Below are positions 2,707-25,816 of a stretch of DNA of 26,455 nt, piece after piece. The translations under genes and the position numbers were made by a program. This stretch comes from a virus. Position 1 is the first letter of the stretch; each line of letters opens with the position of its first letter. The notes under the pieces were generated by a model. That model had not been told where the DNA came from. It did no database searches and saw only the letters and a program-made list of their open reading frames with translations. The stretch covers positions 1 to 26,455 of IMG/VR virus record IMGVR_UViG_3300036780_000410; one strand, 5' to 3'.

Positions 2707-2737
2707 TTTCCGCAGAATCCAAACCCGAACCCGCGTA

Positions 2738-2843
2738 GCACAGGCGCTTTTTCGCTCACGCTCGCACCGCCTAGCCAACCTAGCTCGCGTGAGCAGGGTT
2801 GGTGTGGCGGCTGCGAACGCGAGCTCGGAAGATGCCGTCGTGC
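2738..2843 (+). repeat. Bulged-hairpin palindromic element, copy A (expanded)
   Basis: The ends carry the family hallmarks: GCAC-A-GGC at 2738-2745 and GCC-GTC-GTGC at 2834-2843. The centre is expanded: GCTCACGC pairs with GCGTGAGC, and CCGCC...CCAACC pairs with GGTTGG...GGCGG. GGAAGAT at 2827-2833 resembles the loop in reverse. The element ends 24 bases before the protease start codon, with the ribosome site GAAAGGA in between. Confidence 0.7.
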
Positions 2844-2867
2844 GAAGCAAATCTGAAAGGACAACGC

Positions 2868-3746: not shown

Positions 3747-3779
3747 GCGTCTTTTCAGCATTCCCGAAATCCCCGCGTA

Positions 3780-3821
3780 GCACAGGCGAGGCGCGAATCT
3801 TCCAGCGCCGAGCCGTCGTGC
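3780..3821 (+). repeat. Bulged-hairpin palindromic element, copy B (42 bp)
   Basis: Reads GCAC-A-GGC-GA-GGCGC, then loop GAATCTTCCA, then GCGCC-GA-GCC-GTC-GTGC. Every stem segment is complementary, and the GA/GA internal loop and A/GTC bulge are retained. It ends 25 bases before the capsid start; the leader after it (GAAGCACTTC, then AAAAGGAG) is very similar to that after copy A. Confidence 0.8.
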
Positions 3822-3846
3822 GAAGCACTTCTTAAAAGGAGCACTC

Positions 3847-10030: not shown

Positions 10031-10912
10031 TTACGGCGAGAGGGCAGGGTTGCCGGCGAACAGATAGTGATAGTCGACAGCCGGCGGCGGCATCAGACAA
10101 AAGAGAGCGCCGAAGTTCGCGGCGTTGCGCATGTAGATGCTGCGCAGGCCATAGCGCTCGCGCACCTGGTCGCAAAACGCTTCGTAAAGCGGCGGTACCG
10201 GCGGATCGGTGAAATACTCGTCGAGATAGATGAACATCTTGTCGGCGACCATCACGTCGATCAGGAAGTCGAAGACGAGCTTGTATGACGCCGGCGTGTT
10301 GACGTCGAGGAACGCGAAGCCGATGCGTTGCCTGGCGGCACGCATCTTGGCCTTGAGTGCCGCGTTCAACGTGTCCTCGAAATAGCCGGGCACCAGGACG
10401 CAGCGATCCTTCAGCTCGCGATAGGTCGCGAGCTTGTCCAGCGGCGCCGCCGCTTCGGACGAAGCGCGCCAATGCTCGAAATAATCGCCGGCACCGGCTG
10501 GCGGTCCGCTGCCGCTGTCGGGGTTGCCGAAAATGTCGAAGGCGTAGAAATGTGTGTCCGGATGATGCTTGCCGAGGGAAAAGATCTGGAAAGCCGCGAG
10601 AAAGCTGCAAAACGTGCAGAGGCCATGCGAGCCGAATTCGAAATAGTCGCCGCCGGGGTAATGCGAGGCGACGTCGAGCGCGATCGCCGCGCGGCTCAGG
10701 TAGTTTTGCCGGCACGCGATAAGCAATCGCTGCTCGGCCGTCAGATGCGAGACGGAGCGCAGCACGCCGTAATCGTCATGAATGAGGGGAACGTCCGGAA
10801 CGCCCGAGCCCAGGCGTCTTTTCATCCGGTCGATCGACTTGATCAACGGCGTGAGCGACCCGTTGCGATTAAGCGCTGAAAGTATCCCGGTTCCCACGAC
10901 ACCGCCCCCCAT
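10031..10912 (-). CDS. SAM-dependent methyltransferase (TylF/MacO-methyltransferase-like), cargo gene
   Basis: A 293-residue protein with a class I methyltransferase layout: motif I DYFEFGSHGLCT at residues 89-100, an acidic end of strand two in HFYAFDIFGNPD (Asp126), LVPGYFEDTL and a strand-four motif IGFAFLDVNTPASYK. The post-I acidic residue and the LDVN...KLVFDFLI pattern resemble TylF/macrocin-type O-methyltransferases that act on sugars or polyketides, so cell-surface glycan modification is possible. The start could also be Met30. It is on the - strand directly behind the major tail gene and diverges from the substrate-binding protein gene. Acceptor unknown. Confidence 0.7.
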   Translation of the reverse strand: MGGGVVGTGILSALNRNGSLTPLIKSIDRMKRRLGSGVPDVPLIHDDYGVLRSVSHLTAEQRLLIACRQNYLSRAAIALDVASHYPGGDYFEFGSHGLCTFCSFLAAFQIFSLGKHHPDTHFYAFDIFGNPDSGSGPPAGAGDYFEHWRASSEAAAPLDKLATYRELKDRCVLVPGYFEDTLNAALKAKMRAARQRIGFAFLDVNTPASYKLVFDFLIDVMVADKMFIYLDEYFTDPPVPPLYEAFCDQVRERYGLRSIYMRNAANFGALFCLMPPPAVDYHYLFAGNPALSP

Positions 10913-10948
10913 CTGTGGCTTGCGCTGCGCCGAAATCCCGTTCGTATC

Positions 10949-10977
10949 TTGAGCGATTTTTTATTGCGCTTTACTCT
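10949..10977 (+). promoter_or_regulatory. Weak promoter-like sequence in the divergent gap
   Basis: The gap 10913-11072 lies between divergent genes and is more A/T-rich than its surroundings. TTGAGC at 10949 with a 17-base spacer leads to TACTCT at 10972, a poor sigma-70-like pair that could serve the substrate-binding protein gene. This is only a weak match. Confidence 0.25.
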
Positions 10978-11072
10978 CGTCCCGCGCAAGCGCCACAATA
11001 AAGCTGGCATAAAATGCGTGCAATCGCGAAAATTGGTTTGGCGATGGCAGAATAAATCGAGGGGAGAGCGCG

Positions 11073-12104
11073 ATGGTTCGGTGGCAAAAAATGGCGGCTG
11101 CGGCTTTGGCGATCGCGGCCCTGCTGATCGTGGTGGGCGCGATGCCGATGGCGGCGCGGGCGCAGGGCAAGCCGATCGACGTCATCATCGCGCTGCCGGC
11201 GCCGACCCTCACCTTCAGCGCGCCATTCCTCGCCGAGGATGCGGGGCTCTACAAGAAAGAGGGACTCAACGTCTCGCATCGCATGCTGGTCGGGGTCGAG
11301 GCGGTCAACGCCGTGATCGCCGGCAGCGCCGATTTCACCGTCAGCACCGGCCCCGTGTTCCTGCGCGCGAACGCCAAGGGCCAGCCGCTGCTCGCGGTCG
11401 CCAATCTCATCGACAGACCGCTGGTCGAGATGGTGTTGCGCACGGACGTCTACGACGCGCTGCATGTCACCGATGGCATGTCACTCAAGGAGCGCGGCGC
11501 GCTGCTTAAAGGCAAGACCATCGCCATCCAGGGCGTCGGCAGCATCATCCATGCCTGGGAGCGGTTCGTCGCGGCGCGCGGCGGGCTCGATCCCGAGAAC
11601 GACGTACGCATCGCGCCGATGGACCCGCCGGCGATGCTCGGCGCGCTGCAGACCAAGGCGGTCGACGGTTTCGCGACCTCGTTGCCCTATACGACCCAGG
11701 CGGTGCTGAACGGCAGCGCCAAGATGTTCGCCAGCGCCCCCGAGGGCATCGCGCCCGACATGATCCCGTTCCCCTACGGCATCATCATGGCGCGGCCGCA
11801 GACCTGCCAGCAAAGCCCGGCGAAATGCCGCGGCGTCGTCCACGCGCTCGCCGCCGCCAACAAGATGATCCATGACGAGCCCGACAAGGCGCTCGAGATC
11901 CTGAGCCAGCGCTTCAAGACGATGGACCCGGCGGTGCTGAAGGCGGCATGGAAGACGGTGGCCGCGGCGCATGCGACCGACCTGCGCGTCAACGCCAAGC
12001 TGCTCGCGACCGGCGACAAGATGAATGTCGAGGCGAAGCTGTTGAAGCCCGAGGACCAGCTCAAATCCTATGACGGGCTCTTCACCGACAAGTATCTGCA
12101 GTGA
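11073..12104 (+). CDS. ABC transporter periplasmic substrate-binding protein (NMT1/SsuA-like), cargo gene
   Basis: A 343-residue protein with a clear signal peptide: basic start, hydrophobic core AAAALAIAALLIVVGAMPMA and a likely cleavage after ARA near residue 31. The mature part has the NMT1/SsuA pattern: ALPAPTLTFSAPFLAEDAGLYKKEGL, AVIAGSADFTVSTGP, LKGKTIAIQGVGSIIH and PPAMLGALQTKAVDGFA. Such proteins bind small organic ligands (pyrimidine precursors, sulfonates, aromatics) for import. No permease or ATPase gene accompanies it, so it is an orphan. GGGGAGA precedes the ATG. It is the only cargo gene before the tail chaperone that points in the phage direction. Ligand unknown; family confident. 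Confidence 0.9.
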   Translation: MVRWQKMAAAALAIAALLIVVGAMPMAARAQGKPIDVIIALPAPTLTFSAPFLAEDAGLYKKEGLNVSHRMLVGVEAVNAVIAGSADFTVSTGPVFLRANAKGQPLLAVANLIDRPLVEMVLRTDVYDALHVTDGMSLKERGALLKGKTIAIQGVGSIIHAWERFVAARGGLDPENDVRIAPMDPPAMLGALQTKAVDGFATSLPYTTQAVLNGSAKMFASAPEGIAPDMIPFPYGIIMARPQTCQQSPAKCRGVVHALAAANKMIHDEPDKALEILSQRFKTMDPAVLKAAWKTVAAAHATDLRVNAKLLATGDKMNVEAKLLKPEDQLKSYDGLFTDKYLQ

Positions 12105-12117
12105 TCATCCCTAAATC

Positions 12118-12238
12118 GTCATTGCGAGGAGCGCGCTAGGCGCGACGAAGCAATCCACGAGTCTATGCGCGGCCTTGGATTGCTTCGGCCTTCGCCTCCC
12201 TCGACTTCGCTCGGGATGGGGGCTCGCCTCGCAATGAC
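12118..12238. repeat. Palindromic genome repeat, GTCATTGCGAGG type, copy 1
   Basis: Starts GTCATTGCGAGG and ends with its exact complement CCTCGCAATGAC. Inner arms GAAGCAATCCA and TGGATTGCTTC also pair. This type of palindrome is widespread in alphaproteobacterial and some other genomes. It also holds CCCTCGACTTCGCTCGGG, another common repeat motif. Confidence 0.8.
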
Positions 12239-12330
12239 AAAGGACGCTAGGGCGCCGCCCTCAATCGGTCTCGACCAGCGAATAGCTGGTGCTGCGGCCG
12301 CCGGCGTCCGCTGGGATATTCCCCGCATCA

Positions 12331-12377
12331 TATGCGGAGAATAAGGCGGCTAATCTCCGCATATTGTGCGGAGATTA
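12331..12377. repeat. Three-copy TGCGGAGAWTA inverted/direct repeat
   Basis: TGCGGAGAATA at 12332 is repeated inverted as TAATCTCCGCA at 12351-12361 and again direct as TGCGGAGATTA at 12367-12377, followed by a partial GCGGAT. The second and third copies form a perfect 11-bp inverted repeat with a five-base loop. It lies between two common palindromes and no gene. A recombinase core or protein-binding site is possible. Confidence 0.6.
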
Positions 12378-12441
12378 GTGCGGATCATCTGAACACCAGC
12401 TAAGTCGCGAAAGATATTCGCTCTTGTAATCTTCCGTCTTT

Positions 12442-12527
12442 GTCATTGCGAGGAGCGTAGCGACGAAGCAATCCAGCTCCGGGGCAACTGGATTGCTTCG
12501 TCGGCCGAACGGCCTCCTCGCAACGAC
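12442..12527. repeat. Palindromic genome repeat, GTCATTGCGAGG type, copy 2
   Basis: GTCATTGCGAGGAGC at the left matches GCCTCCTCGCAACGAC at the right as a near-perfect inverted pair; GACGAAGCAATCCAG pairs with CTGGATTGCTTCGTC inside. Same family as the copy at 12118-12238. Together with the three-copy repeat these fill the 12105-12548 gap, in which I see no gene. Confidence 0.8.
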
Positions 12528-12548
12528 GGTACGGAAAAGCGCCTCGTC

Positions 12549-13606
12549 TCAGCCGAGCCCGGCGATCGTCACCGCGCTGAGGTGGTCTTCGAGGAGTTGG
12601 GGCAGCTGGTCAAGGGGCGTGCGGCCGAAGCCGCAATAGGCGGCAAGGCCGAATGTCGGCAGGAACTTCCGCGCGACGTCGAGCCGGGCTTGGAGCGTCG
12701 GCATCGAATGGATCGCGCCGAGATAGATATCGGCGCCCTTGGCGTCGAGCCCGGCGAGCGGCGCGTAGAAGCTTTCCTCGACGGTGTTCAGCACCGGGAT
12801 ATGCACCCAGTCGATGCGGCGCCCGGCGGCCTCGACCGAAGCGTTGGCGAGATCGACGGTCGGGCCGAGCGTCTTCGGCGCGAAAGCCGGCCAGCCGCCG
12901 AAGGTGCCGAAGCAGAAATGAAAGCCGAGTGCCGCGCTCTCGGGGATATGCCGCGATAGCCGCTTCACCGGCGCGGTATGGTCTCGATGTCGCTTTCGCG
13001 CGGCACGTCCTTGGCGGCACCGGAGACGGCCTGGATCTCCCAGGCCATGTCCCATTGGATCGCGAGATCCTGCGCCGGGATGCGCTGCGCGATGACGTCG
13101 AGCTCGGCGGCGAGCGATTCCTCGAAGCCCGGCCGGATGCGGTCGAGGTCTTTGGGATCGGGGAAATAAAGCGGCCGCACCACGCTGTTGACCATCGGGA
13201 TCGAGATCTGGAAGCGCAGCGCGGCGGGCAGCAGGCCTTTCTCGCGCAGCGTCTTGAAGACGAAATAGGAGGCGACGGCGTCGCGCGCATAGCCGAGCCG
13301 CGTGCCGGGATTGCCGAAGCGCACGCGCTCGACGCCCGGCCGCACGCGGAACTGCCAAGTGTCGGCGCGGGTGCGCGGCAGAAGCTGCTCCAAGCCGTCG
13401 ACCGGCGGCGGCCGCTTCAAGGTCTCGAGATCGGCATGGCCGTTGAAGAGCAGATAGCAGAGGCGGTTGACCCAGGAGCGGCGCTCGCCGATCTCGCCGT
13501 CCGGCAGCGCCGGCAGATAGCGGCCGAGCATGCCGCCGAATTCGAGCATCACCTCTTCGACGGTGTCGCGCGGCACGCTGCCGACGAGCAGGAGTTCCTT
13601 GTTCAT
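12549..13606 (-). pseudogene. Methionine synthase II (MetE C-terminal)-like protein, frameshifted
   Basis: From ATG at 13606 the frame reads MNKELLLVGSVPRDTVEEVM, LPDGEIGERRSWVNRL and RFQISIPMVNSVVRPLYFPD, then stops at 12965 after ESDIETIPRR. The continuation in another frame reads APVKRLSRHIPESAALGFHF, FGTFGGWPAF, DWVHIPVLNTVEESFYAPLA and GLAAYCGFGRT, ending at 12549. The span is 1058 bases, one short of 353 codons, so one missing base near 12965-12970 explains both halves. The UROD/MetE-like TIM-barrel pattern suggests a cobalamin-independent methionine-synthase-like orphan; the full catalytic set cannot be confirmed. It lies on the - strand among cargo genes and could be a true decay or a sequence error. 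Confidence 0.65.
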
Positions 13607-13624
13607 GACACGCTTCCAAATAAT

Positions 13625-14544
13625 TCAATCGAGTGGATTGACGCAGGTTACGACTTTCGCCTCTCGCAGCTCCTCGAAATTTGGGTAAAACATCCCGTCT
13701 GGCGGCGTTGAGAGGGCTCGATCGATGAATTCGGTGCTCACGCCGGCTTTCTGCAGTTGCTCGCGGAACATCCGGCTTGCATCGGCAGCCGCTTCACCGG
13801 CGAACGCAAAACTGTGAAAGCCGAGCCTCGCATATCGGTACATACAGCGCTGAGCGCCCGCCATAAAGAGTACGGCGCAGGCGGAATCGCATTCCTTGCG
13901 AACGACAGTCCGGAGCGATCCTTTTCGGATCATGCGAGCCATCTCGAACGCAGGGCCAGCACGACCGCCGAGACTGGTTAGCGTAATCGTCGCAATTGCC
14001 GGCGAAGCAAGAGCGCCTTCTAATTGTTGGTCACCGATCGGGTAAGGGGACCGTAGACTTCGATCTCATCCCGGCCAATGAGGTTCACACCTCGAGGACC
14101 GTCTCCCGAATCCTCCGTTATGTCTGAAATTGCATCATCGATCTGCGGAAGAGCGAAACCCCAAAGCGTATAGACCATCCGAAGAATGGATAAGCAGATA
14201 ACAATGGTTACGAGCGGCGGCCACGGACTCTTGGGATCGTTGCCAGTGCGATATCGCTTATTCGCGCGCCAAGTTCCCACCCACCACCACAAAGCACCAA
14301 CAAACATCAGGCCGTAGGTGCCGACCAAAACGAGGAAGACCGCTATTGGATTGATCATTCGCGACAGGCCGTAAGCCGCGAGGCGACCCGAAAAATGAGC
14401 GGTTAGATAGACAAATACACCCGCGCCCCAAAAGCTGAATGGAAGCGGGAGCTCGCCGTGCCAGTGCCGCTTTATTCCAGTCAGCCAGAACTGCGGGTGC
14501 ACTGGCGCAAGAACTTGGCGCGCTCGTTGCTCGTCAAAGTGCAT
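13625..14544 (-). pseudogene. Membrane protein with ClpP/SppA-like periplasmic domain, frameshifted
   Basis: The first part (14544 to a TAG at 14020, 174 residues) has three hydrophobic spans (FWGAGVFVYLTAHFSG, INPIAVFLVLVGTYGLMFVG, PPLVTIVICLSILRMVYTLW) and then GVNLIGRDEIEVYGPLT. In a second frame the sequence continues without stop from about 14030: LEGALASPAIATITLTSLGG, FEMARMIRKGSLRTVVRKEC, then DSACAVLFMAG, ARLGFHSF, ending at 13625. This is the GG-strand and SAC motif of ClpP-fold membrane-associated proteins (COG3904 type). The total, 920 bases, is one short of 307 codons. A lone downstream start at 13942 would give only a truncated domain. Either a decayed gene or an assembly error; the joined fold is well supported, its substrate is unknown. 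Confidence 0.65.
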
Positions 14545-16052: not shown

Positions 16053-16121
16053 CGGCAATGTGCCAGCAAAGCGAGCGGTCGAATCTCGAGACCGCGCGCG
16101 TCTTGCGACGGCACATTGCCG
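16053..16121 (+). repeat. Bulged-hairpin palindromic element, copy G (69 bp, complete)
   Basis: Outer arm CGGCAATGTGCC pairs with GGCACATTGCCG. Inside are A / GAC, GCAA / TTGC, A / GTC, then GCG-A-GCGGTC pairing with GACCGC-G-CGC around loop GAATCTCGA. It fills the gap between the tape measure gene and DUF2460, ending 16 bases before the DUF2460 start codon. Confidence 0.8.
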
Positions 16122-16778: not shown

Positions 16779-16857
16779 CGTCATGCCCGGACTTGTTCCG
16801 GGCATCCACGTTCTGAGAACAAGCTCGTGGATGGCCGGGACGAGCCCGGCCATGACG
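16779..16857. repeat. Palindromic genome repeat, CGTCATGCCCGG type
   Basis: CGTCATGCCCGG at 16779 pairs with CCGGCCATGACG near 16846-16857; GGCATCCACG also pairs with CGTGGATGGCC. This is a common dispersed alphaproteobacterial repeat. It occupies the 127-base gap between DUF2460 and DUF2163. Confidence 0.8.
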
Positions 16858-18571: not shown

Positions 18572-19306
18572 ATGCCCGATATCGAAACGGAACGCGCGCG
18601 CGGAGCACAGGCGAGCGCCGAATCTTCTAAGCGCGAGCCGTCGTGCGAAGCATCGGAAAGAGCGGCCGTCATCGCCGAGGCACGCGCGTGGCTGGGCACG
18701 CCCTATCATCACATGGGCCGGGTCAAAGGCGCGGGCGTCGATTGCGCGACCTTGCTCGCCGAGGTCTATGCGCGCGCCGGCGTCATTCCGCCGGTGGCGA
18801 TTCCTTATTATCCGCCGGACTGGCATCTCCATCGCGACGCCGAGCGGTATCTGGGATTTGTTCTGGAACATGCGCAGGAGATTCGCGGCGGAGCACAGGC
18901 GGATGCCCCGGACAATCGCTCGTCGCGATTGTCCCCGGAGGGTTCACGCGCGAAGAGCGCGTGGAGCGGGACATCCAAATCTTCCGGGCGCGAGCCGTTG
19001 TGCGAAGCAAAGCCAAAGCCTGCGGATATCGCGCTGTGGAAATTCGGCCGCTGCTTCTCGCACGGCGCGATCGTGCTCGATTGGCCGCTGGTCATCCATG
19101 CCTATGCCGGCAAGGGCTGCGTGCTCGAGGACGCGTCCCGCGCGCGCTGGCTGGCGCAGCGCGGCGAGCGAAGTGAGCGGTCTCCACGCCCCGTGAAGTT
19201 CTTCCGCCTGATGAGATGGGGCGCACCTGCGCTCGAAACGGATTCGAGCGAAGCAACGGCGCGGGCCGAATATGTAGGCCCGCGCCTGCACGCGGAGCGC
19301 AAATAA
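18572..19306 (+). CDS. NlpC/P60 tail peptidoglycan hydrolase carrying embedded palindromic elements
   Basis: A 244-residue NlpC/P60 cysteine peptidase of the tail tip, which would cut cell-wall peptides during DNA entry. Candidate catalytic residues are Cys58 in GVDCATLLAEVY and His164 in CFSHGAIVLDW; AWLGTPYHHMGR is the family start. Residues 12-25, 108-144 and 228-240 are encoded by copies of the bulged hairpin element (AQASAESSKREPSC; GAQADAPDN...SGREPLC). Without them the protein would be a typical size for this family (about 150). The catalytic motifs are intact and the element reading frames are open, so the enzyme is probably made. Start at 18572 has only weak GCGAGGGCG upstream. It is followed at once by the hub gene (TAA-A-ATG). 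Confidence 0.88.
   Translation: MPDIETERARGAQASAESSKREPSCEASERAAVIAEARAWLGTPYHHMGRVKGAGVDCATLLAEVYARAGVIPPVAIPYYPPDWHLHRDAERYLGFVLEHAQEIRGGAQADAPDNRSSRLSPEGSRAKSAWSGTSKSSGREPLCEAKPKPADIALWKFGRCFSHGAIVLDWPLVIHAYAGKGCVLEDASRARWLAQRGERSERSPRPVKFFRLMRWGAPALETDSSEATARAEYVGPRLHAERK
18605..18646 (+). repeat. Bulged-hairpin palindromic element, copy C (in NlpC/P60 N-terminus, 42 bp)
   Basis: GCAC-A-GGC-GA-GCGC, loop CGAATCTTCTAA, GCGC-GA-GCC-GTC-GTGC. It is 42 bases, 14 codons, read as part of the protein. The start of the conserved enzyme (AAVIAEARAWLGTPY) follows nearby, and GGAAAG after it looks like a former ribosome site. Confidence 0.8.
18893..19003 (+). repeat. Bulged-hairpin palindromic element, copy D (inside NlpC/P60, expanded)
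   Basis: Family ends GCAC-A-GGC at 18893 and GCC-GTT-GTGC ending 19003, with loop AAATCTTCC. Two extra hairpins lie in its 5' arm: GGACAATCGC at 18910-18919 with GCGATTGTCC at 18925-18934, and TTCACGCGC with GCGCGTGGA at 18943-18965. The total of 111 bases is 37 codons and keeps the frame. It lies between the Cys and His catalytic motifs. Confidence 0.7.
19253..19289 (+). repeat. Palindromic element-like hairpin, copy H (NlpC/P60 C-terminus)
   Basis: GCAA-C-GGCGCGGGCC, loop GAATATGTA, GGCCCGCGCC-TGC. The left arm and loop match, in reverse orientation, the right arm of copy I (GGCGCGGGCC-GAATCTTCA). It lies in the last codons of the gene and adds a tail with no role in the enzyme. The terminal GTC-KTGC is absent, so this is a truncated copy. 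Confidence 0.55.
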
Positions 19307-22367: not shown

Positions 22368-22385
22368 GTAGCGGCGAGCGCGCTC

Positions 22386-22495
22386 GCAAGACGGTCGACC
22401 CGACCGATCGCTCTTCGCGATCGGTCCCTGCGGGTTCACGCGCCGTGAGCGCGTGAACGGAGTCGACGGCCTGAAGATTCGGCCCGCGCCTTTGC
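22386..22495 (-). repeat. Bulged-hairpin palindromic element, copy I (reverse, expanded)
   Basis: Read on the - strand it begins GCAA-A-GGCGCGGGCC with loop GAATCTTCA and ends GTC-TTGC. Two extra hairpins lie between: GACCGATCGC/GCGATCGGTC and TTCACGCGC/GCGCGTGAA, the same pair as in copy D (same order on the + strand). It sits in the gap between hub and tail fibre genes, with a CCCCTGAGCC...AAGGGG repeat after it. Confidence 0.7.
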
Positions 22496-22500
22496 TTACG

Positions 22501-22521
22501 CCCCTGAGCCTGTCGAAGGGG
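22501..22521. repeat. CCCTGAGCCTGTCGAAGGG-type dispersed repeat
   Basis: CCCCT at 22501 and AAGGGG at its end pair around GAGCCTGTCG. This short motif is a very common dispersed repeat in many proteobacterial genomes. It lies between element copies I and E in the 22368-22638 gap, which holds no gene. Confidence 0.7.
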
Positions 22522-22556: not shown

Positions 22557-22624
22557 GTCGCGGCGCCAGCAAAGACTCGCCGCGAATCTTTTAGCGGTGA
22601 GCCGTCTTGCGACGGCGCCGCGAC
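22557..22624 (+). repeat. Bulged-hairpin palindromic element, copy E (68 bp, complete)
   Basis: Outer arm GTCGCGGCGCC pairs exactly with GGCGCCGCGAC. Inside are A / GAC, GCAA / TTGC, A / GTC, then GACTCGCCGC pairing with GCGGTGAGCC (one mismatch and one G-T) around loop GAATCTTTTA. It ends 14 bases before the tail fibre start codon; AAAGGAG, the ribosome site, follows directly. Confidence 0.8.
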
Positions 22625-25209: not shown

Positions 25210-25816
25210 CGCAGCCAACTCCTCGGCGGCGCCAGCACAGGCCGCGAGCGAATCTCCAGCGACGCGGCCGTCGTGCGACGGCGCAGTCGACGCATTCAAA
25301 GCCGCTGTTGCCATCGTGCTCGCGCATGAAGGCGGTTATCAGGCGCTGCCCGACGATGCCGGCAACTGGACCCAAGGCAAGATCGGCGCTGGCGCCTTGA
25401 AGGGCACGAAATACGGCATCAGCGCCGCGCAATATCCGACGCTCGACATCGCCGCGCTGACCGCCGATGACGCCGCCGCGATCTATCGCCGCGATTGGTG
25501 GGATCGCTTCGGCCTCGCACGTCTGCCGCCGCCGCTGGCGGCAAAGCTCTTCGACGCCGCGGTCAATCTCGGCATCGAGGAAGCCGTGCGCGCGCTGCAG
25601 CGCGCACTCCGCGCCGCCGGCCCGCAAAACGCGGCGCCCCTCGCCGAAGACGGCAAGCTCGGCGCGGCGACGCTCGCCGCCGCCGTTGCCATCGCGCCCG
25701 CGACGGTGCTGCCGGCGCTGCGCGAGGCGCTCGCCGGCCATTACCGCCTCATCGCCGCGCGCAGCCCGTCGCAGGCGTCTTTCCTGACGGGCTGGCTCAG
25801 CCGCGCCTATTCGTGA
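25202..25816 (+). CDS. GH108 endolysin (lysozyme) with an element-encoded N-terminus
   Basis: A 204-residue glycoside hydrolase 108 muramidase that cuts peptidoglycan to release particles. VLAHEGGY holds the candidate catalytic Glu43; GTKYGISAAQYPTLDIAALT, YRRDWWDRFG and LPPPLAAKLFDAAVNLG follow the GH108/zliS family, and the C-terminal region from about residue 120 looks like the PG-binding-3 domain. The normal family start (DAFKAAVAIVLAHEGGY) is preceded by about 30 residues, of which residues 8-30 are encoded by palindromic element F, so this N-terminus is acquired. No signal peptide, so release needs a holin. High confidence for the enzyme. Confidence 0.93.
   Translation: MSDAANSSAAPAQAASESPATRPSCDGAVDAFKAAVAIVLAHEGGYQALPDDAGNWTQGKIGAGALKGTKYGISAAQYPTLDIAALTADDAAAIYRRDWWDRFGLARLPPPLAAKLFDAAVNLGIEEAVRALQRALRAAGPQNAAPLAEDGKLGAATLAAAVAIAPATVLPALREALAGHYRLIAARSPSQASFLTGWLSRAYS
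25223..25290 (+). repeat. Bulged-hairpin palindromic element, copy F (68 bp, in the endolysin N-terminus)
   Basis: Outer arm TCGGCGGCGCC pairs with GGCGCAGTCGA (one mismatch, one G-T). Inside are A / GAC, GCAC / GTGC, A / GTC, then GGCCGC-GA-GC pairing with GC-GA-C-GCGGCC around loop GAATCTCCA. Its translation reads SAAPAQAASESPATRPSCDG, similar to that of copy C in NlpC/P60. Confidence 0.8.

Follow-up and report, generated by a model that had tools for sequence, protein, structure and literature searches.

Probable in-frame copies of a small palindromic repeat in an NlpC/P60 tail gene of an alphaproteobacterial prophage

An NlpC/P60 gene in a prophage of an uncultured alphaproteobacterium contains palindromic DNA that its relatives lack, and we consider it very likely that two of the inserts (C and D), and probably a third (H), are copies of a small, non-autonomous, REP-like repeat family that have been tolerated in frame. 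The window analysed, i.e., the whole 26,455-bp IMG/VR record, holds nine copies of this family: the short forms B, C, E, F and G, the divergent H, and the long forms A, D and I, with eight of the nine in the + orientation (Table 1). A preliminary description had placed three in-frame palindromes within the gene, which is a tail enzyme; C and D are indeed members of the family, but H is not internal, since it is located in an extension of some 26 residues at the C-terminus, which abuts the next start codon, and its membership is weaker.

Table 1. The NlpC/P60 gene, its inserts and the other repeat copies of the window.
Feature	Position	Strand	Basis
NlpC/P60 phage tail peptidase gene, GTA-type, 244 aa	18572..19306	+	TIGR02219, phrog_329, AlphaFold model matching NlpC/P60 structures
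Net N-terminal insertion C, 22 codons, residues 9-30	18596..18661	+	Missing in 8/8 aligned close relatives
Element copy C, 54-nt short form	18599..18652	+	BLAST to copy B; held-out covariance model
Element copy D, long form, between Cys58 and His164	18887..19009	+	Head and tail shared with other copies; orthologues without D
D inner module, 76 nt, GGATGCCCC..GGGACATCC closing stem with hairpins	18901..18976	+	Homologous modules 22394-22467 and G006 L174 612-686
H, divergent related hairpin in C-terminal extension, abutting ATG 19308	19247..19294	+	Perfect 10-bp stem, DNA fold z=-6.2
Copy A, long form, intergenic, upstream of protease ATG 2865	2732..2849	+	Head and tail matches
Copy B, intergenic, upstream of capsid-position gene ATG 3847	3774..3827	+	BLAST match to C
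Copy F, intergenic, upstream of ATG 16138	16059..16112	+	
Copy I, long form, intergenic	22380..22502	-	Model match 22450-22502 minus, 24.8 bits; inner module 22394-22467
Copy G, intergenic, upstream of ATG 22639	22562..22616	+	
Copy E, in frame in endolysin N-terminus (ATG 25202; GH108)	25228..25282	+	Held-out model 51.2 bits

The product of the gene matches TIGR02219 (phage_NlpC_fam, E=4.2e-13) with 49.9 bits, below the curated cut-off of 81.9 bits; because its relatives, with or without inserts alike, score only 48-56 bits, the whole divergent clade falls below the cut-off, and we refer to the protein as an NlpC/P60-like phage tail peptidase rather than a TIGR02219 equivalog. A Pfam search returned no match in the window protein nor in orthologues free of inserts, so that the weak library match is a property of the clade and not an effect of the inserts. 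The ORF product also matches phrog_329 (minor tail protein), and the adjacent genes match TIGR02217, TIGR02218 and GTA_megatron (GTA-type distal tail/baseplate), all below curated cut-offs. Immediately 5' of the gene, an odd position in a tail cluster, is an ORF matching an NTF2-fold immunity protein (PF15631; 18096-18500).

Comparison with orthologues drawn from viral contigs and bacterial MAGs shows that the inserts are derived, the relatives being without them. The nearest orthologues begin with MIDVDTERAAVV (L009), MIDIDAERQAVV (L010) and MIEIGAERARVV (L011), and the window protein with MPDIETER-[ARGAQASAESSKREPSCEASER]-AAVI, a net gain of 22 codons. The preliminary description had quoted the peptides of C and D correctly (e.g., SGREPLCEA) and had underestimated the DNA: C, given as 42 bp, is a 54-nt element within a net insertion of 66 nt, and D, given as 111 bp, is a net gain of 40 codons or 120 nt over L010 (18890-19009), composed of a head, a 76-nt branched module and a tail. 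Instead of the roughly 64 codons attributed to C, D and H together, the total excess over L010, the shortest close orthologue (156 aa), is 88 residues.

D separates the catalytic Cys58 and His164 motifs and, as had been claimed, leaves the catalytic sequence intact: Cys58, His164 and the second histidine, His176, are invariant in 32 orthologues. The spacing from Cys to His is 64-65 residues in 119 of 136 orthologues and exceeds 90 in just three, i.e., L091 (93), the window (105) and L012 (160), whose insertions all fall at one loop, between HA.E(I/Y) and P.DIALW. The extra DNA of L012 (300 nt, fold z=-4.0) and of L091 (99 nt, fold z=-2.0) is also palindromic and differs from D in sequence; since these two share the flanking residues EYVP..ILP, they may go back to a single ancestral event that was later replaced. 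A GERSERS stretch before the C-terminus was dropped as a further insertion, its length being equal in L009.

Where D stands in the window, G006 (the L009 record) reads EI-SCEAKPKP-SD and G007 (the L010 record) EI-AGDPLP-AD. The G006 sequence TGCGAAGC is the terminal octamer of the element, precisely at the 3' boundary of D, and it occurs once on the + strand of the scanned pieces of that record. On the simplest reading, D would have entered before the window and G006 split, and would later have been deleted from G006 for the most part, in frame. The retention of SCEAKPKP, by which D may predate this split, is also what could be cited for the extra residues being ancestral and lost in relatives, the outcome against which the preliminary description had set its reading; but the short spacing common to most orthologues, and the fact that the inserted DNA is a dispersed repeat, leave this with a negligible probability, and for the family as a whole it is already refuted.

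That C and D are copies of a dispersed repeat is evident from BLAST, in which C matches the intergenic copy B at 87% over 54 nt (E=4.5e-13) and the 35-nt tail of D matches C at 86% (E=4e-7). A held-out covariance model of eight copies, with C, D, E and H excluded, recovers C (59.5 bits, E=3e-13) and E (51.2 bits, E=4e-11) and finds H weakly (18.9 bits, E=0.005, core positions 12-40); H is probably a related but divergent member, and an H-like copy lies just 5' of an ATG in the relative L089 (8466-8518).

The short form, of about 41-54 nt, consists of CGCGTAGCACAG, a variable stem (with the loop GAATCTT in many copies) and CGTCGTGCGAAGC. The long form, of about 120 nt, carries an extra branched module of 74-76 nt in place of the left arm of the inner stem. 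The closing stems of the modules in D, I and L174 (positions in Table 1) are GGATG/CATCC, GTCGA/TCGAC and GGTTG/CAACC, respectively: different, but self-complementary. A tRNA origin of this cloverleaf-like module was rejected, as ARAGORN finds no tRNA.

Across 29 aligned copies, the pairs of a 12-pair hairpin are present in 96.3% of cells, compared with 23-45% once the partner is slid, with 65 two-sided changes and a covariation score of 0.444 versus 0.02-0.08, figures that lean towards structure because this alignment was fitted to the covariance model; in the original MAFFT alignment of 10 copies, two-sided changes were already present at 7 of the 12 pairs. Since most single copies of the short form fold with energies no better than those of shuffles, the case for the hairpin is one of covariation, not energy.

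Copies C, D, E and H share one reading frame within the element (GCA-NNN-GCN...GAA-TCT), and C, D and E each add a net multiple of three nucleotides. Some other frames of some copies contain stops; given that stops are few in GC-rich DNA, we take the open frame as supporting evidence only. One universal coding frame for the family was rejected, since chromosomal copies at a tlyA-like gene are read in another (+2). The frame also bears on whether the ribosome skips the in-gene hairpins by translational bypassing: a GCA codon stands in frame near both ends of C, D and E, such that take-off and landing there would restore near-ancestral lengths, and, if true, the bypassed palindromes would constitute a family residing in bacterial or phage genes. 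But every in-gene copy has a length divisible by three and no stop in its frame, neither of which bypassing needs, and we consider it extremely improbable.

The codons on both flanks of D are under purifying selection: relative to L009, NG86 dN/dS is 0.046/0.609 before D and 0.119/0.637 after it, and the codon changes on the window branch comprise 13 synonymous and 4 non-synonymous. If D predates the split from G006, all substitutions on this branch postdate D, and the 13:4 ratio would favour a working gene with D in place. A gene that was decaying, or untranslated, through its inserts might show the 88-residue excess and the interruption of its TIGR02219 match, which ends at residue 97, directly before D, and in L009, without D, extends through profile position 120. 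Such decay is very improbable in view of the low dN/dS on either side and the branch ratio, the frame that is open throughout, the invariant catalytic residues, and the lack of any in-frame ATG, GTG or TTG between C and the core. The extended protein is presumably made and active.

Modelling with and without the inserts, which the preliminary description had proposed, yields the same core secondary structure. The AlphaFold model of the window protein (32 sequences) has a mean pLDDT of 77.8, with the core above 90, the N-terminal insert at about 66, D at 44-49 and the C-terminal tail at 50-56; that of L009, without C and D, has a pLDDT of 88.2, its helices and strands following one another in the same order. 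In Foldseek searches against the PDB, the predicted fold matches NlpC/P60 enzymes (e.g., 6b8c, MepS). The core fold is predicted to be kept despite the inserts, which appear as low-confidence loop or tail.

The C-terminal tails of L009 (4430-4507, a TPAKAGVQ-type CGTC dimer) and L014 (4560-4621, an HHGGTESTEKQ repeat) are also repeat-derived, which makes the C-terminus a further tolerant site. Together with the three different palindromic DNAs at one loop, these tails could be taken to mean that the inserts are adaptive, the loop favouring new surface peptide that, e.g., alters contacts with peptidoglycan or the tail. We judge this improbable: the inserted sequences are unrelated, have low confidence in the model and are missing at the loop from about 98% of orthologues, and a tolerated loop is the simpler account of their recurrence. 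The peptides would, on the reading that we prefer, have no function of their own.

In-frame insertion is not confined to one gene, as copy E lies in the endolysin, whose orthologues in G006 (starting MSDATPSDDGFAAAV) and G007 (starting MNDDDGFAAAL) are without it; the window protein has net gains of 21 and 25 codons over these, and its Pfam GH108 domain begins at residue 37.

Related phages carry the family as well. G006 has copies at L172 13337-13389 and, on the minus strand, at L172 4039-4092, with a long form in L174 around 590-720, and further copies occur in L011 and in the prophage of a Rhodospirillales MAG (L089). In G009, a distant phage, four tandem minimal copies (CGTAGCACAGGCCGCAGGCCTTCGTGCGAAGCAGAAAAACA; L177 5925-6083) lie directly upstream of the protease gene, the same junction that copy A occupies in the window.

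The family is also found in chromosomes. Covariance model R1 returned at least 17 matches (E<=2e-4) in G003 (the genome of L091, Alphaproteobacteria REEB257), G047, G048 and G049, and a strict pattern found 10 in these four genomes, none in 39 other genomes of the order, and none when reversed as a control; all such counts are minimum values, as only a limited set of candidates is scored in the genome search. By the same token, the near-absence of the family among the candidates scored in the wider class is a weak negative. Neither the 43 genomes searched for the order nor the 385 for the class gave a BLAST match to the window copies, a plasmid BLAST gave none, and exact pattern scans for the element tail gave none in viral or genome contigs; BLAST is blind to the chromosomal copies on account of stem divergence, and only the covariance model found them. 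Many of them sit in short gaps beside apparent housekeeping genes. Copies lie downstream of a dnaJ-like gene in two genomes and, in four, at the 3' end of a tlyA-like gene, whose C-terminus they provide (both names given by eye from protein starts, not by family search). A chromosomal copy at L183 1501-1579 has a second GTAGCAC..GTGCGAAGC element nested in its loop, which suggests an element inserted into an element.

An alternative is that the element is primarily a functional hairpin, acting in RNA processing, termination or translation control and kept by selection, with the in-gene copies as by-products. Gaps upstream of a start codon contain five of the nine window copies (A, B, F, G and I), G006 and the distant G009 share a copy immediately 3' of the major-tail-gene stop, the window and G009 both have copies before the protease gene, and covariation is strong; the + orientation and the recurrence of sites in distant phages fit a junction function as well as they fit mobility. 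Close relatives nevertheless differ in what these sites hold: the window and G007 have an empty major-tail-gene site, the protease junction is filled by other hairpins in G006 and G007, and the capsid junctions by unrelated repeats. In addition, a mechanism that copies palindromes could also yield covariation, and Rfam 15 gave no match above the gathering score and nothing near threshold. On balance, we think a primarily functional hairpin unlikely.

Under the favoured reading, of a tolerated repeat, the family resides in the chromosomes of one alphaproteobacterial clade and would have spread into its prophages, in a transposition-like manner, its copies landing in gene junctions and, where length and frame allowed, inside genes. 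A 54-nt element is 18 codons, stop-free in the frame GCA-NNN-GC...GAA-TCT, and could be accepted within a gene. In the NlpC/P60 gene, C follows residue 8, D occupies the loop that joins the catalytic Cys helix domain to the His strand, and H probably entered at the C-terminal tail; the inserts would be read through as extra, mostly disordered surface peptide, with the enzyme core intact and selected, and in-frame copies would persist because they fall in loops or termini. As for how copies move, the flanks of C (ACGGAACGCGCG/TCGGAAAGAGCG) match at only 9 of 12 positions, which is unconvincing as a conserved 12-bp target duplication, and a clean target-site duplication would call for a closer empty-site pair than those compared. 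An association with RAYT finds no support in the four copy-bearing MAGs, which are incomplete: PF01797 (Y1_Tnp) is missing in G047, G048 and G049, and G003 has one copy, in whose locus no element was found.

The first description of in-frame palindromic "selfish DNA" in proteins came from Rickettsia; REPs within ORFs have since been catalogued for a number of further species. According to the accounts in PMC2229807 and PMC3733652, Rickettsia palindromic elements (RPE) occur in frame in protein genes (Ogata et al. 2000); PMC2229807 summarises that an RPE-bearing guanylate kinase is still active, and a title that it cites reports in-frame palindromes in Wolbachia. The preliminary comparison with RPE holds for the mode of action: dispersed palindromes of alphaproteobacteria occur both between genes and in frame in genes that stay functional, where they are tolerated as extra peptide, and in the window, too, the repeat stands in genes whose orthologues are without it (C, D and E). 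The repeat family and the host differ. The window repeat has its own conserved ends and stem, a short form of 41-54 nt as opposed to 105-146 bp for RPE (PMC2229807), and a place in prophage genes of a high-GC clade, where enzyme activity would be retained by analogy; the two are set apart by length, composition and host, and not by direct sequence comparison.

GTAG/CGTC REPs, families of which with CGTC are common in alphaproteobacteria, are also found inside ORFs (Di Nocera et al. 2013, PMC3733652), and resemble the window family as small palindromes of intergenic gaps that occur in some ORFs and at C-termini. Unlike them, the window family has neither GTAG nor CGTC as an unpaired terminal tag: its GTAG, which the GCGCCAGCA subtype lacks, overlaps with the paired GCAC arm, and its CGTC is internal, between the stem arms. 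It differs further in the conserved GTAGCACAG/CGTCGTGCGAAGC ends that flank a variable stem, and in having a long form. We do not claim membership of the RPE or GTAG/CGTC REP families. The L009 tail (CGTC-stem-CCA..TGG-stem-GACG) does fit a CGTC head-to-head dimer, and an element between two tail genes of the window (16779-16857; CGTCATGCCCGG..CCGGGCAT-CCA..TGG-ATGGCCGGG..CCCGGCCAT-GACG) resembles a classical one.

Coxiella QMITEs (150-400 bp; PMC5896051) and enterobacterial RU elements (103-168 bp; PMC2759123) are likewise small and non-autonomous, and lengthen or interrupt ORFs in frame; both are larger than the window family, from which they are set apart by description and not by sequence. 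A limited search of open-licence PMC papers found no description of this repeat family or of such inserts in phage tail genes. In phage genes of an uncultured, high-GC alphaproteobacterial clade, a different repeat family appears to do what RPE do in Rickettsia, and three palindromic DNAs in one loop of one enzyme family offer a natural test of how peptide is absorbed and later eroded, for which sequences already exist from relatives whose site is filled, filled differently, scarred or empty.

The record has other features of note. Downstream of the portal gene is a 110-nt fragment (2532-2641) with 92% identity to that gene (984-1093), and G006 and G007 have bigger portal fragments at the corresponding place. 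Probable cargo genes occupy 10031-13940, with an NMT1/THI5-like protein (11073-12104) and several minus-strand ORFs without a Pfam match. An inverted repeat between genes (12317-12377), with 27-nt arms that are 81% complementary across a 7-nt gap, is also present in G006 (L172 15897-15958), at 77% identity.
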